From Ilumatobacter coccineus YM16-304 (GTDB lineage: Bacteria; Actinomycetota; Acidimicrobiia; Acidimicrobiales; Ilumatobacteraceae): DNA of 64,000 nucleotides. How positions within the stretch are numbered: position 1 is the stretch's first letter; the number at the start of each line of letters is the position of its first letter. Location of the stretch: the NCBI RefSeq assembly GCF_000348785.1, contig NC_020520.1, forward strand, positions 2,046,001 to 2,110,000, written 5' to 3'. Of this stretch, positions 6,116 to 56,283 are shown one piece after another. Below the pieces are notes generated by a model. That model searched no databases and had not been told where the DNA came from. It saw only the letters and a program-made list of their open reading frames with translations. A program made the translations under genes and the position numbers.

Positions 6116-6427
6116 ATGCGGATCGAGATCACCGACGACGCTCAGAAGGTCTTGGCCAAGAAGGGCGGAACGATGTCGATCGACTTCATCCGCCCCACCG
6201 GTTGAGGCAAAGTCGCTGAGGTGTCGGTCGACACCAACGTCAAAGGCAAGAACCTCGCTCCGTACCGCAAGCTGCGTCACGAGAAGTTTCAGATCCTCAT
6301 CACCCCGCAGTTGATCGGCATGGCCGAGTCGATGCGTGTGGTGACCAAGGGTGGGCTGAGCAAGAAGTTGAAGGTCGAGTTTCAAGCGGTGCCCGGCACC
6401 GACGACGGCTCCTGCAACGTCTGCTGA
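6116..6427 (+). CDS. Candidate selenoprotein: HesB/IscA-like small protein with in-frame UGA (Sec30)
   Basis: Reading from the ATG at 6116, 10 nt after the RNase E/G stop, gives 103 residues interrupted once by TGA at 6203-6205 (codon 30), in the context IRPTG-U-GKVAEV. Both sides read as one small domain: MRIEITDDAQKVLAKKGG and a strand before the TGA, and PYRKLRHEKFQILITPQLI after it, ending in a Cys-x-x-Cys tail (SCNVC). The layout resembles what I recall as the 'CC/Se motif family (seleno)protein', where this site is Cys or Sec, and more distantly HesB/IscA. A strong bacterial SECIS-like hairpin follows the TGA (see 6206-6235). Without recoding, a caller would start at the GTG at 6221, inside that hairpin, and lose a third of the protein. 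The alternatives are a pseudogene or a sequence error, but the hairpin argues against both. The biochemical role is unknown; redox or thiol/metal chemistry is plausible. Confidence 0.82.
6206..6235 (+). promoter_or_regulatory. Bacterial SECIS element (predicted)
   Basis: Fourteen nucleotides after the TGA at 6203-6205 comes GGTGTC (6220-6225), a GGTC loop (6226-6229) and GACACC (6230-6235), a perfect 6-bp stem. The E. coli fdhF SECIS minihelix also has a GGUC loop, starting 18 nt after its UGA; here the loop starts 20 nt after. The element would recruit SelB with Sec-tRNA to recode the UGA. Confidence 0.8.
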
Positions 6428-51891: not shown

Positions 51892-52980
51892 TCACCAGGC
51901 GTCGGTGCGGACCCCGACGCGGTCGTACTGGTTGCCGAGGACGACACCGAGCTTGCGTGCTTCACCGTCGTGGAGGCTGATGCCGGGCCGTCCGTGAGCG
52001 AAGCGATAGTTGCAGATGATGCCGACGTCGCCCTGGCGCCAGTTGATCGGGCTGCCGAACTCGTCGTACAGGTCGATCCACTGCTGGATCTCGTCGCGGG
52101 AGATCTCGCTGTCGTCGCCGAACGTCATGTGCAGCGGCCGTTCGTCGTAGGGGAGGTGCTGCACGAGCGGCCAGGTGTCGAACCACATGCCGTGGTCGGC
52201 GAGGCTGCTGTAGAGCACGTTGCGATCGAGCCCTGGGAAGTACTCGAACGCCGGGCAGTAGAAGCGGGTCTTGAGCAGGCGGTTGTCGCCCCATTCGACG
52301 GCCAGACGCTGATCACGCGCCCGGCTCGCCGCCAGGTTCGGGTCGTCGGTGCCGAACGACTTCTGCCAGTGGTTGTAGACGCCGAACTCGGTCTTGCCGA
52401 GGAACTGCTCCTGGTCGGTGAGGTTGCGGTGGTAGCAGACCCCGAGATCCTTCAGCTTCTGTCCGAGTGGCGTGCTGAGCAGCTTGTCGGTGACGGCGAC
52501 CGAATCCGACACCCAGGTCGCTCCGCGGCTCGGCGACCCGTCGTCCGGAACCGGGAGGGTCTCCTTGGCGAGGAAGCTGATCACGCGCGTGCTGCGGCCC
52601 ACGTAGGCCATCTCGTGGTGGTAGTGCAGCCATGCCGAGAGTGGTGCACCGATCTCGTAGACGTTGGGCTCGATGTTGCCGCGGGGGTTCGCTCCACCCT
52701 CGTACGACATCTCGTCGTCGATGATGAGCTTGGCGGCGGCACGCATGTCGACCAACTCGGTCAAGCCGGTGTTGGTGAGGTGCACGAGCCCGACGCGGTC
52801 GTACGTGTCGCGCACGAGCTGAGCGAACGAACTCCCGCGGCGCAGGTCGGCGGCACCGAGGCCCATGCCGGCACAGTCGATGGTGTAGCTCTCCGGGTCG
52901 ACGGCGGCTTCACCCGCCCACCAGTTCGGCTCCACGACGTCGTCGAGCGGCTGCAGTTCTGAGTATTCGACGATGGCCAT
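51892..52980 (-). CDS. TauD/TfdA-like Fe(II)/2-oxoglutarate dioxygenase
   Basis: The 362-residue protein has the non-haem iron fold of the TauD family. The N-terminal metal motif appears as HHEMAYVGRS (His-x-Glu, as in the clavaminate synthase branch, instead of His-x-Asp). The distal histidine and the 2-oxoglutarate-binding arginine lie in NYRFAHGRPGISL. Between them is a substrate-binding insert (ATWVSDSVAVTDKLLS). The substrate is unknown. A small hairpin (CCCGA/TCGGG, 53022-53040) lies upstream in the 157-nt gap to the SelW-like gene. Confidence 0.85.
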   Translation of the reverse strand: MAIVEYSELQPLDDVVEPNWWAGEAAVDPESYTIDCAGMGLGAADLRRGSSFAQLVRDTYDRVGLVHLTNTGLTELVDMRAAAKLIIDDEMSYEGGANPRGNIEPNVYEIGAPLSAWLHYHHEMAYVGRSTRVISFLAKETLPVPDDGSPSRGATWVSDSVAVTDKLLSTPLGQKLKDLGVCYHRNLTDQEQFLGKTEFGVYNHWQKSFGTDDPNLAASRARDQRLAVEWGDNRLLKTRFYCPAFEYFPGLDRNVLYSSLADHGMWFDTWPLVQHLPYDERPLHMTFGDDSEISRDEIQQWIDLYDEFGSPINWRQGDVGIICNYRFAHGRPGISLHDGEARKLGVVLGNQYDRVGVRTDAW

Positions 52981-53137
52981 GGCAGGCTCCGATCGCAGTC
53001 ATCACGGTGGCGGGACCTAATCCCGATGCTTTCAGTCGGGAATCGTAACCGTGCTCGGCTGGATGTGGCGCACGCACGTCCACAAAGTCGCGAAGTGGGG
53101 TGTCTACCTGCGCCGACGCGCTGGCCGCGGAGTGTCG

Positions 53138-53407
53138 TCAGGTGCCGTAGCGAGCAACGCCGTCACCGAATCGCTCGGTGAACAGGTCGAGCACCTCGCC
53201 GGGCTCGGCATGCCGGCCCGTGACCGCCTTCGAGTAGATCGTCTCGCCGTCGACCACGACGTCGAACACTCCGGCCGACCCGGTGACGAGCGTGAGCGAC
53301 TCGATGACGTGCTGATAGTTCGAGAGCAGATCGTCGACCGCGCTCACGGCGCGGGACGAATAATCTCAAGGGACGCAGTAGGTGATGGAGATCACGTGCT
53401 TGTGCAT
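53138..53407 (-). CDS. Candidate selenoprotein: SelW/Rdx-family protein with CxxU (Sec14)
   Basis: From the ATG at 53407 the frame gives 89 residues with one internal TGA (53366-53368, codon 14). The start reads MHKHVISITYCVPU-DYSSRAV: a strand, then Cys11-Val-Pro-Sec14, the redox motif of the SelW/SelT/SelH/Rdx thioredoxin-like family at its expected place. The rest fits that family: AVDDLLSNYQHVIESLTLV, then GSAGVFDVVVDGETIYSK (the G-x-F-x-V-x-V-D-G strand pair) and GRHAEPGEVLDLF. A SECIS-like hairpin begins 11 nt after the TGA. A caller ignoring recoding would start at the GTG at 53347, after the active site. It lies 83 nt downstream of ppc on the same strand. The function is probably thiol/selenol redox; the partner is unknown. 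Confidence 0.88.
53338..53365 (-). promoter_or_regulatory. Bacterial SECIS element (predicted) of the SelW-like gene
   Basis: On the minus strand, eleven nucleotides after the TGA come CCGCGC (53354-53349), a CGTGA loop (53348-53344) and GCGCGG (53343-53338), a perfect 6-bp stem. The 11-nt distance equals that in E. coli fdhF, and the loop has a G in its first two positions and a GU. The GTG that a gene caller would choose as start lies in this loop. Confidence 0.75.
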
Positions 53408-53426
53408 GCCGCCCAGCGTACCGATC

Positions 53427-53488
53427 GGCCAGCGGCCGGGCAGCCAGGCAGCCAGGCAGCCGGGTCGCTTGGTGGCCAGCGGCCGGGC
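53427..53488. repeat. 15-bp direct repeat with short 8-bp repeats between
   Basis: GGCCAGCGGCCGGGC occurs at 53427-53441 and 53474-53488. Between the copies is a run of CAGCCAGG-like 8-mers (three units). It fills most of the gap between ppc and the SelW-like gene. Confidence 0.7.
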
Positions 53489-53490
53489 GG

Positions 53491-56283
53491 TCAGCCCGAG
53501 TTGCGGATTCCCGTGGCGATCGCGTTGATCGTGAGCTGGATGCCGCGCTGCACCAGTTCGTCGTCGTCACCGTCGCGGAAGCGCCGCAGCAGGTCGACCT
53601 GCATGACGTGCAACGGGTCGAGATACGGGTACCGGTTGCGCAGGCTGCGGGCGAGCAACGGGTTGTCGTTGAGCGGGTCGGGCGAGCCGGTGATGTGCGC
53701 GTGCCAGGTGCGCGTGGTGGCGTGCTCCTGCTCGATGCGTCCGAAGATGTCACTGCGGGTGCTGTCGTCTTCCACCAGCACGTCGGCGTAGCGGCGACCG
53801 ATGTCGATGTCGGCCTTCGCCAACACCATGCCCATGTTGTCGATGATCGTTCGGAAGAATCCCCACGAGCCGTACATCTCGGTGAGGAGGTCGGCGTTCG
53901 CGTCGTCGGCTGCGGCGAACGTGTCGAACGCCGACCCGGCCCCGAACCAGGCGGGGATCATCAGACGACACTGCGTCCAGCCGAACACCCACGGAATCGC
54001 GCGGAGGTCTTCGATGGCCTGCGACTTCTTCCTCGATGCCGGTCGGCTGCCGACGTTGAGCGTCGCGATCTCGTTGGTCGGCGTGATCTGACGGAAGAAC
54101 GTGACGAACCGGTCGTCGCCGTAGACGAGCCGTTGATAGGCGTCGAACGCGGTCGAGGCCATGTCGTTCATCGCAGCGACGTATCTCGGATCGGGGGCGT
54201 CGGCTGCGTCGGCCGAGCGGCACGAGGCGTGCAGGGTGGCGGCCACGAGCGTTTCGAGGTTGCGGCGGGCGAGCGCGGGCTGCGCGTACTTGGCGGCGAC
54301 CATCTCGCCCTGTTCGGTGACTCTGATCGCTCGGTCGACCGAACCGGCCGGCTGAGCGAGGATGGCCTGATAGGCGGGGCCGCCACCGCGGCCGACGGTG
54401 CCGCCGCGACCGTGGAACAGTCGCAGTCGCACACCGGCGTCGTCGGCGGCAGCGAGCAGCGAGGCCTGCGCGTGGAAGAGGTTCCACTGCGACGACAGGT
54501 AGCCGCCATCCTTGTTCGAGTCGGAGTAGCCGATCATCACCTCTTGGCGATTGCCCCGCGACGCCACGAGGTCGCGGTAGGTCGGATGTTCCATGAGCGC
54601 CGTGACGGTCGCGGCCGATGCCGCGAGGTCGCCGATCGTCTCGAAGAGCGGGACGATGTCGAGTTGCGCCGAGGCCGGAGCGTCGTCGGTGGCGACCGTC
54701 ATCAGACCGATTTCCTTGAGCAGGACCGCAACCTCCAGCACGTCGCTGACGGCCGTGGCCATCGAGATGACGTAGTGCGGCACCGCTCGCGCACCGAGTT
54801 CGGCCACGGCTTCGGCGGCGGCATCGAGGACGGCGAGTTCTTGTCGGGTCTGATCGGAGTAGACCGCAGTGCGGTGACGGAGCCCACGAGGGCTCGTCAG
54901 TTCGGCGCTCAGGATCTCGACCCGGGCGTCTTCGTCGAGTTCGAGGTAGTCGGGGCACACCCCGGCCTGAGCGAACAGGTCGGCCACGACCGCTTCGTGC
55001 ACGGCGGAGTTCTGCCGCATGTCGAGACCGCACAGATGTGCGCCGAACGTCGCCACCGCTCGGCGGACCGGTTCGACCGATGCCTCGGCCAGGTCTCGGG
55101 CCCCGTGCGAGCGGAGCGAGGCGGCGACGACGTCGAGGTCGGCGAGCAGTTGGTCGAGCGACGGGTACGCCTCGAGCGGGACCCTCGGGGGCGGGCCGCC
55201 GAGCGCACCGGCCCCGGCGTCGAGCACGTGGTCGGCAAACGCGTACAGGCGCGCGTACATGCCGCGCAGCGCCCGCCGGTACGGCTCGTCGGCTCGGAAC
55301 CGCGACTCGTCTTCGGACGCCTCGGCCAGCGCTTCGAGCTCGGGCGTCGGCGTGATGAGGCGGGCCGACATCGACAACTCGGTCGACAGCGCGTACAGCG
55401 CGTCGAGATGGTGACCGAGGGCGGTCTCGGCCTGACGCTGGATCGCGAGGCGCATCACCTCGGCGGTGACGAACGGGTTGCCGTCGCGGTCGCCACCGAT
55501 CCACGAGCCCATGCTGACCACGCTCGACGCGTCGAGGTCGTCGACGCCGAGACGGTCGGCGGCGAGGCGTTCGAGATCTCGCTCGAGGGTCGGGATCGTC
55601 TCGAAAAGACTGGCGTCGTAGTACCGCAGCGCCTCGTTGATCTCGTCGGACACACGAAGCTTCGACAGCCGAAGTATCGCGGTCTGCCAGAGCGTGAGGA
55701 TCTTCACGTCGAGCGCTGCTTCGATCTCGGCTCTGGCCGGATCGCTGTCGTCGAGCAGCGAACGTTCTTCGAGCAGGTCGGCGATCACGCCGAGCACGTC
55801 GAGGATGGTCTTGCGGCGCACTTCGGTCGGGTGCGCGGTGATCACCGGGCTCACCTGGAGGTCGGCGACGACCGAGGCGATGGCGTCGATCGGCGTGCCC
55901 GTCGAGGAGATCGCGTCGAGAGCTGCCTCGAGGCTGCCGGGCTGTGGGCCGCTCCCGCTTCGCCGGTGGTGACGACGACGACGCTCGACGTGGACGTCTT
56001 CGGCGGTGTTCGCCAACAGCGAGAGCCAGTCGAACGCCCGAATGACGTGGAGCTGCTGGTCGATCGGTTGCTCGCCGAGCGTTCGTTGGAGATCGTCGAC
56101 CGAGCTGGTGCCGCTGCGTCGACCCTCGACGGCGATCTGGCGGACCGACTCGACGAGTTCGAACGTGTCGTCGCCCGCCTGCTCGCGCACCACGTCGCCG
56201 AGCAGCCGCCCGAGCAGACGGATGTCGTTGCCGAGTTCTTCGTATCCGGACGTGTCAGGAGTGCTCACCGTTCCAGTCAACAC
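53491..56283 (-). CDS. ppc: Phosphoenolpyruvate carboxylase
   Basis: The 930-residue protein carboxylates PEP to oxaloacetate, replenishing the TCA cycle. Catalytic segments are VITAHPTEVRRKT (essential His), IGGDRDGNPFVT, GYSDSNKDGGYLSSQW and FHGRGGTVGRGGGP; the C terminus reads NAIATGIRNSG in place of the usual GIAAGMRNTG. Length is as expected. The start may be the ATG at 56283 or the GTG 15 nt downstream. With pckG in the same window, the PEP-oxaloacetate node is complete in both directions. Confidence 0.97.
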   Translation of the reverse strand: MLTGTVSTPDTSGYEELGNDIRLLGRLLGDVVREQAGDDTFELVESVRQIAVEGRRSGTSSVDDLQRTLGEQPIDQQLHVIRAFDWLSLLANTAEDVHVERRRRHHRRSGSGPQPGSLEAALDAISSTGTPIDAIASVVADLQVSPVITAHPTEVRRKTILDVLGVIADLLEERSLLDDSDPARAEIEAALDVKILTLWQTAILRLSKLRVSDEINEALRYYDASLFETIPTLERDLERLAADRLGVDDLDASSVVSMGSWIGGDRDGNPFVTAEVMRLAIQRQAETALGHHLDALYALSTELSMSARLITPTPELEALAEASEDESRFRADEPYRRALRGMYARLYAFADHVLDAGAGALGGPPPRVPLEAYPSLDQLLADLDVVAASLRSHGARDLAEASVEPVRRAVATFGAHLCGLDMRQNSAVHEAVVADLFAQAGVCPDYLELDEDARVEILSAELTSPRGLRHRTAVYSDQTRQELAVLDAAAEAVAELGARAVPHYVISMATAVSDVLEVAVLLKEIGLMTVATDDAPASAQLDIVPLFETIGDLAASAATVTALMEHPTYRDLVASRGNRQEVMIGYSDSNKDGGYLSSQWNLFHAQASLLAAADDAGVRLRLFHGRGGTVGRGGGPAYQAILAQPAGSVDRAIRVTEQGEMVAAKYAQPALARRNLETLVAATLHASCRSADAADAPDPRYVAAMNDMASTAFDAYQRLVYGDDRFVTFFRQITPTNEIATLNVGSRPASRKKSQAIEDLRAIPWVFGWTQCRLMIPAWFGAGSAFDTFAAADDANADLLTEMYGSWGFFRTIIDNMGMVLAKADIDIGRRYADVLVEDDSTRSDIFGRIEQEHATTRTWHAHITGSPDPLNDNPLLARSLRNRYPYLDPLHVMQVDLLRRFRDGDDDELVQRGIQLTINAIATGIRNSG

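Follow-up and report, generated by a model that had tools for sequence, protein, structure and literature searches.

A predicted SelW/Rdx-family selenoprotein gene with a conserved in-frame UGA in Ilumatobacter coccineus YM16-304 and related Acidimicrobiia

Organization of the locus

The genome of Ilumatobacter coccineus YM16-304 consists of one contig of 4,830,181 bases, of which a stretch of 64,000 nucleotides (NC_020520.1, positions 2,046,001 to 2,110,000), is hereafter called the window. Reading of its minus strand revealed a frame running from an ATG at 53407 to a stop at 53138 and interrupted by a single internal TGA (53368-53366), which stands at the Sec/Cys position of the CxxU/CxxC motif, here CVPU (Table 1). 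In a mechanical list of open reading frames the same region is represented by a 69-amino acid frame starting from a GTG (53138-53347). When the TGA is read through, the predicted product begins with MHKHVISITYCVPU and continues for 75 residues. A previous sequence-only reading had followed the 69-residue frame upstream through one TGA to an ATG, placed the TGA at the Sec/Cys position and described a 6-bp hairpin starting 11 nt further on. Frame reading bore out these coordinates: the TGA is codon 14 and is found at the same site in nearly all relatives examined, and the hairpin reads CCGCGC-CGUGA-GCGCGG after an 11-nt spacer, its first stem base being nt 12.

The gene lies downstream of a 930-amino acid PEP carboxylase, which itself ends in TGA, and upstream of a TauD-type dioxygenase. 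Among 150 related loci, taken with about 1.5 kb of flank each and some of them cut by contig ends, a PEP carboxylase is adjacent in 5 and a TauD-type dioxygenase in 0 at E 1e-8, and the gene neighbourhood in these loci gave no functional clue. Neither a sigma-70-type promoter nor a terminator-like site was found within 52950-53650, and a comparison of the window with Rfam gave no match that reaches the gathering score of a family.

Table 1. Coordinates of the features of the predicted SelW/Rdx-family gene, given as positions in the window
Feature	Position	Strand	Remarks
Predicted SelW/Rdx-family selenoprotein gene	53138..53407	minus	89 residues including U; motif Cys11-Val-Pro-Sec14
ATG start	53405..53407	minus	in five relatives of the same taxonomic family (L051-L055), a start is possible 10-14 codons ahead of the TGA
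In-frame UGA, codon 14, predicted to be read as selenocysteine (U14)	53366..53368	minus	
Apical hairpin of the presumed bacterial SECIS	53338..53354	minus	stem 53354-53349, loop CGUGA 53348-53344, stem 53343-53338
GTG start of the 69-amino acid frame	53345..53347	minus	within the hairpin loop
Stop TGA of the SelW/Rdx gene	53138-53140	minus	

Another possible selenoprotein frame was observed elsewhere in the window. On the plus strand, positions 6116-6427 could encode MRIEITDDAQ...RPTG-U-GKVAEV..., with an in-frame TGA at 6203 that has coding-type third positions on both sides. This frame shows a weak match to the NCBIfam model NF041239, 'CC/Se motif family (seleno)protein' (24.9 bits vs a cut-off of 40), and no match in Pfam. 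The next TGA, at 6425, comes after CNVC and opens a 15-bp hairpin; it is probably a true stop with a terminator-like stem.

Family membership and predicted fold

A search of Pfam with the 89-residue product, U being entered as Cys, was proposed in the sequence-only reading and attributed the product to the Rdx family (PF10262) with 60.5 bits (E 1.8e-16, residues 6-75), well over the cut-off of 22.6. The 69-residue fragment alone scores 35.2 bits, in agreement with the claim that the upstream part restores the N-terminal strand and the redox motif. The read-through product also passes the TIGR02174 model (44.1 bits, cut-off 34.2), and it is the only Rdx match in the host genome. The CxxU motif, C11-V-P-U14, comes after the first strand, which spans residues 4-11 in the structure model. 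In an alignment of 51 sequences chosen as TGA forms, Cys11, Sec14, Tyr16, Ala20, Val21, Gly46, Ser59 and Lys60 are invariant.

CxxU or UxxC surrounds the TGA in 33 read-through frames of the window, that of the SelW/Rdx gene included, so the motif alone is weak evidence. A coding-type third-position signature on both sides, at thresholds of our own choosing, is shared by 6 TGAs in the window, among them the one considered here. It is homology and not the motif that decides for a read-through, namely the match to Rdx and the retention of the TGA in relatives.

The structure model of the product (mean pLDDT 97.5) shows a strand, a helix, three strands and then helices, and the predicted fold is the thioredoxin-like fold of SelW-type (Rdx) proteins. 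Twenty-one PDB matches reach E 0.001 or better, every one a chain of 2obk, 2fa8, 2oka, 3dex, 2ojl or 2p0g (TM 0.75-0.83); they are followed in rank by MIEN1, mouse SelW and then mostly thioredoxins. A sequence-profile search was led by the same six entries, 2fa8 being the best with 2.5e-18.

Conservation of the TGA among relatives

The distribution of the gene was investigated in 395 genomes of the class. An Rdx match is present in 154 of them, spread over 60 of 184 genera, a figure that applies either to genomes at least 90% complete or to all genomes. Among the Rdx matches listed, which comprise 150 entries from 148 genomes with our own gene included and leave out the matches of six genomes, 149 contain exactly one TGA; these entries are not independent, some genera having been sampled many times. 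The sole entry without a TGA is a diverged CTQC protein from a genome (G004) that has no SelA match. This CTQC protein (L021, G004:C65) may have been acquired horizontally, or its contig may be foreign to the genome.

A second search, by protein and with no TGA required, returned 189 relatives, of which the best 80 were kept, several on contigs shared with the first set. The TGA occupies the site in all 80 (71 by pattern and nine by eye). The CxxC or CxxU homologues to be looked for according to the sequence-only reading are thus TGA forms in both sets, with the one exception described above. Named records of the second set belong mostly to Acidimicrobiia, Acidimicrobiales, Ilumatobacteraceae and unspecified actinobacteria, and others bear the names Chloroflexi, Anaerolineae, Promineifilum and Fimbriimonadaceae; some may come from a wrong bin, since most are metagenome bins.

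Seventy loci (69 relatives and our own gene), all TGA forms picked by the pattern Y/F then CxxU, were examined closely; 37 of them have CVPU and the remaining 33 a different CxxU. Comparison of the ten codons 5' of the TGA between ten relatives and our own gene gave 14 synonymous and 22 amino-acid-changing differences, so that only the last codons before the TGA (Y-C-V-P, kept in 10 of 10 relatives) are clearly conserved. The locus displays a conserved in-frame UGA at the Sec/Cys position, as is expected of a bacterial selenoprotein.

These data bear on the simplest alternative, in which the TGA acts as a normal stop and a 69-residue protein is initiated at GTG 53347. That frame is open and matches Rdx by itself, but its product would be deprived of the first strand and of the whole redox motif, and in 14 of the 70 loci this GTG is replaced by GTC or GTT, neither of which is a start. 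In addition, Y/F then CxxU stands at the TGA in 70 of 70, but this pattern had served to select the loci. A different residue in close relatives combined with a working start at this GTG had been named beforehand as the observation that would count against a selenoprotein; this combination was not encountered, the codon varying as described and lying inside the hairpin loop. We consider an ordinary stop highly unlikely.

Selenocysteine machinery in the host and in the class

The sequence-only reading made its proposal depend on a Sec system in the genome, and the four components were all recovered over their cut-offs: tRNA-Sec (66.5 bits, cut-off 47; ARAGORN agrees, with a tRNA-SeC of anticodon tca), SelA (413.2 bits, cut-off 267.9), SelB (275.1 bits, cut-off 242.25) and SelD (369 bits, cut-off 125). 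The gene for SelB adjoins that for SelA on the same strand, and its product carries a winged-helix domain (SelB-wing_3). At E 0.001 the tRNA, SelB and SelD searches also match in 14 of 14 control genomes, and the SelA search in 4 of 14. We therefore relied on matches over the curated cut-offs, which are reached in 5 of 14 control genomes for the tRNA, in 2 each for SelB and SelD and in 1 for SelA.

The SelD gene (G000:C1:2441028-2441951, minus strand; L018) itself contains one in-frame TGA, in the context GAG-U-GCK, followed by a stable predicted fold.

In the class as a whole, SelA, counted at E 1e-30 or better (a threshold of our own choosing), occurs in 259 of 395 genomes. Rdx and SelA are found together in 142 genomes; 12 have Rdx only, 117 have SelA only and 124 have neither. 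SelA accompanies Rdx in 142 of 154 genomes and is present in 117 of the 241 genomes lacking Rdx (Fisher p 5e-21, kinship not corrected). The 12 Rdx genomes without SelA are G004 and eleven of 63-90% completeness, and weak SelA matches exist in two of them (G097 and G163). In the 117 genomes with SelA and no Rdx, the Sec system is probably kept up by other selenoproteins.

The UGA might also be read as another amino acid, through suppression or a change of code, and any such read-through would yield the same frame. TGA nevertheless serves to end frames at this locus, both in the SelW/Rdx gene and in the upstream PEP carboxylase; the complete Sec gene set is present, the site is the Sec/Cys position of the family, and Rdx co-occurs with SelA. 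Insertion of an amino acid other than Sec accordingly appears extremely improbable. That a Cys codon was turned into TGA by a nonsense mutation, which would make the locus a pseudogene, or by a sequencing error was rejected and has a negligible probability: Cys members do exist in the Rdx family and TGA is one base away from TGT and TGC, but the explanation is contradicted by the conservation of the same TGA across the class and in the second set, including its records named Chloroflexi and Anaerolineae.

The hairpin downstream of the UGA

The hairpin, with 6 bp at nt 12-28 after the UGA, lies just after that codon and has a G in its small apical loop, as a bacterial SECIS is expected to; binding of SelB to it is predicted. 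Its pairing was compared in 64 distinct sequences from 67 loci, our own gene included, with 2000 codon-preserving permutations in which synonymous codons were swapped within a column only. All six pairs are kept in 46 of 64 sequences, whereas the permutations average 25.0 such sequences and never exceed 32; fewer than five pairs are kept in 10 of 64. In an alignment of 60 sequences (58 distinct), 91.1% of cells pair vs 85.1 in shuffled alignments and cells with a double change number 36 vs a shuffled mean of 15.1; sliding the partner column by 1-3 leaves 17-60% paired. No excess over shuffles was found in this alignment for pairs with a double change (4 vs 3.2, reached in 174 of 500) or for further pair types (7 vs 8.3). 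These last two are among five covariation measures, and the pairing nulls leave relatedness in. The conserved R-A-V codons also constrain part of the stem and the GU of the loop, the invariant GU being fixed by an invariant valine codon.

Against synonymous recodings, the mean z of folding stability over 70 genes has its minimum immediately past the TGA (-1.07, then -0.88) and ranges from -0.57 to +0.11 elsewhere; in 18 of the 70 genes, no more than 5 of 100 recodings reach the same stability at the first offset. The hairpin of our own gene compared with shuffles gives z -2.0 to -2.6 for stretches of 38-71 nt and z 0.0 when 101 nt are folded, and is, taken alone, moderately unusual in its stability. 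Under recoding, its region reaches z -2.25 and another stretch of the gene -2.14; a second stretch being nearly as stable, the fold of a single gene is weak evidence.

A covariance model was built from 60 hairpin sequences. Our own gene is among them, and its match of 60.4 bits is therefore obtained by construction. In the rest of the window the model gave nothing above 9.7 bits, and it does not find the stretch after the TGA of the SelD gene. It should consequently be regarded as specific to this gene family, not as a general SECIS finder.

Interpretation and proposed mechanism

Taken together, the frame, the homology, the conservation of the TGA, the Sec machinery genes, the conserved hairpin and the predicted fold form the basis for reading 53138..53407 as a SelW/Rdx-type selenoprotein gene in which UGA codon 14 is almost certainly decoded as Sec. 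The central proposal of the sequence-only reading is upheld by the family match, the Sec genes of the genome and the TGA kept in relatives. Sec insertion, SelB binding and redox activity are predictions. SelA would make Sec-tRNA(Sec) with selenophosphate from SelD, and SelB carrying this Sec-tRNA(Sec) would be recruited by the hairpin past codon 14; we propose that through this recruitment the UGA would be decoded as selenocysteine and not as a stop. Cys11 and Sec14 would form a redox pair in the loop after the first strand of the thioredoxin-like SelW fold. The product is most likely a small cytoplasmic selenol/thiol oxidoreductase forming a selenenylsulfide.

A selenoprotein is thus supported where a plain list of open reading frames leaves a fragment without its active site. 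In the class sampled, both the Sec machinery and SelW in its Sec form occur widely, and the breadth of the Sec form is moderately interesting. We see an even chance that SelW of Acidimicrobiia includes a widespread Sec-obligate subfamily, typified by CVPU, that reaches records named Anaerolineae or Chloroflexi, has essentially no Cys orthologues and a maintained hairpin, and is one of the main clients keeping the Sec system in these lineages. The alignment and the hairpin also provide material for the automatic annotation of such genes.

Comparison with known systems

Among Rdx-type proteins of solved structure, the bacterial 2fa8, 2obk, 2oka, 2p0g, 2ojl and 3dex are matched by both sequence profile and structure. 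Three of the entries (2fa8, 2obk and 2p0g) bear names that relate them to SelW or SelT/W/H, and the others (2oka, 2ojl and 3dex) are labelled hypothetical or uncharacterised; all six presumably carry Cys where Sec would be. Mouse SelW (2npb) belongs to the same family by profile (E 4e-5) but is 18% identical in the structural alignment, and in eukaryotes, according to the part of the literature consulted, the SECIS is located in the 3' UTR.

Concerning the organisms, the main text of a 2016 survey of >5200 organisms contains neither 'SelW' nor 'Acidimicrob', and searches on selenoproteins of Acidimicrobiia or selenocysteine in Ilumatobacter returned nothing related in titles and the beginnings of abstracts. 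In the sections consulted of a 2015 study, SelW genes in particular are described as completely missed by annotation, and the epsilonproteobacterial SelW as a Sec form whose TGA is followed within a few nt by a 5/6-bp hairpin with an invariant loop G (PMC4607533). The gene described here resembles it in its Sec form and in the short hairpin with a loop G after the TGA, but differs in that its product stays under the equivalog cut-off of the NCBIfam model NF041051 (SelTWH_Campy; 71.7 vs 88).

Reports of bacterial SelW-like selenoproteins date from 2005 and 2006 (PMC1088965; PMC1794560). As far as the consulted sections of the latter go, 10 SelW-like selenoproteins are given in a table, and in organisms that contain Sec, Cys homologues are very scarce or absent for the SelW-like family and some others (PMC1794560). 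Our gene shares with the proteins of these two reports the in-frame UGA, a SECIS just downstream, a G in a small apical loop and the scarcity of Cys homologues; it differs in the prevalence of CVPU among the loci examined here and in its lineage, Acidimicrobiia and some Chloroflexi-named records, which is not named in the parts consulted of either paper (PMC1794560; PMC1088965). Such proteins having been known since 2005-2006, the SelW/Rdx gene of I. coccineus joins a known kind, ordinary for its family, and leaves the picture of bacterial SelW-like proteins unchanged.
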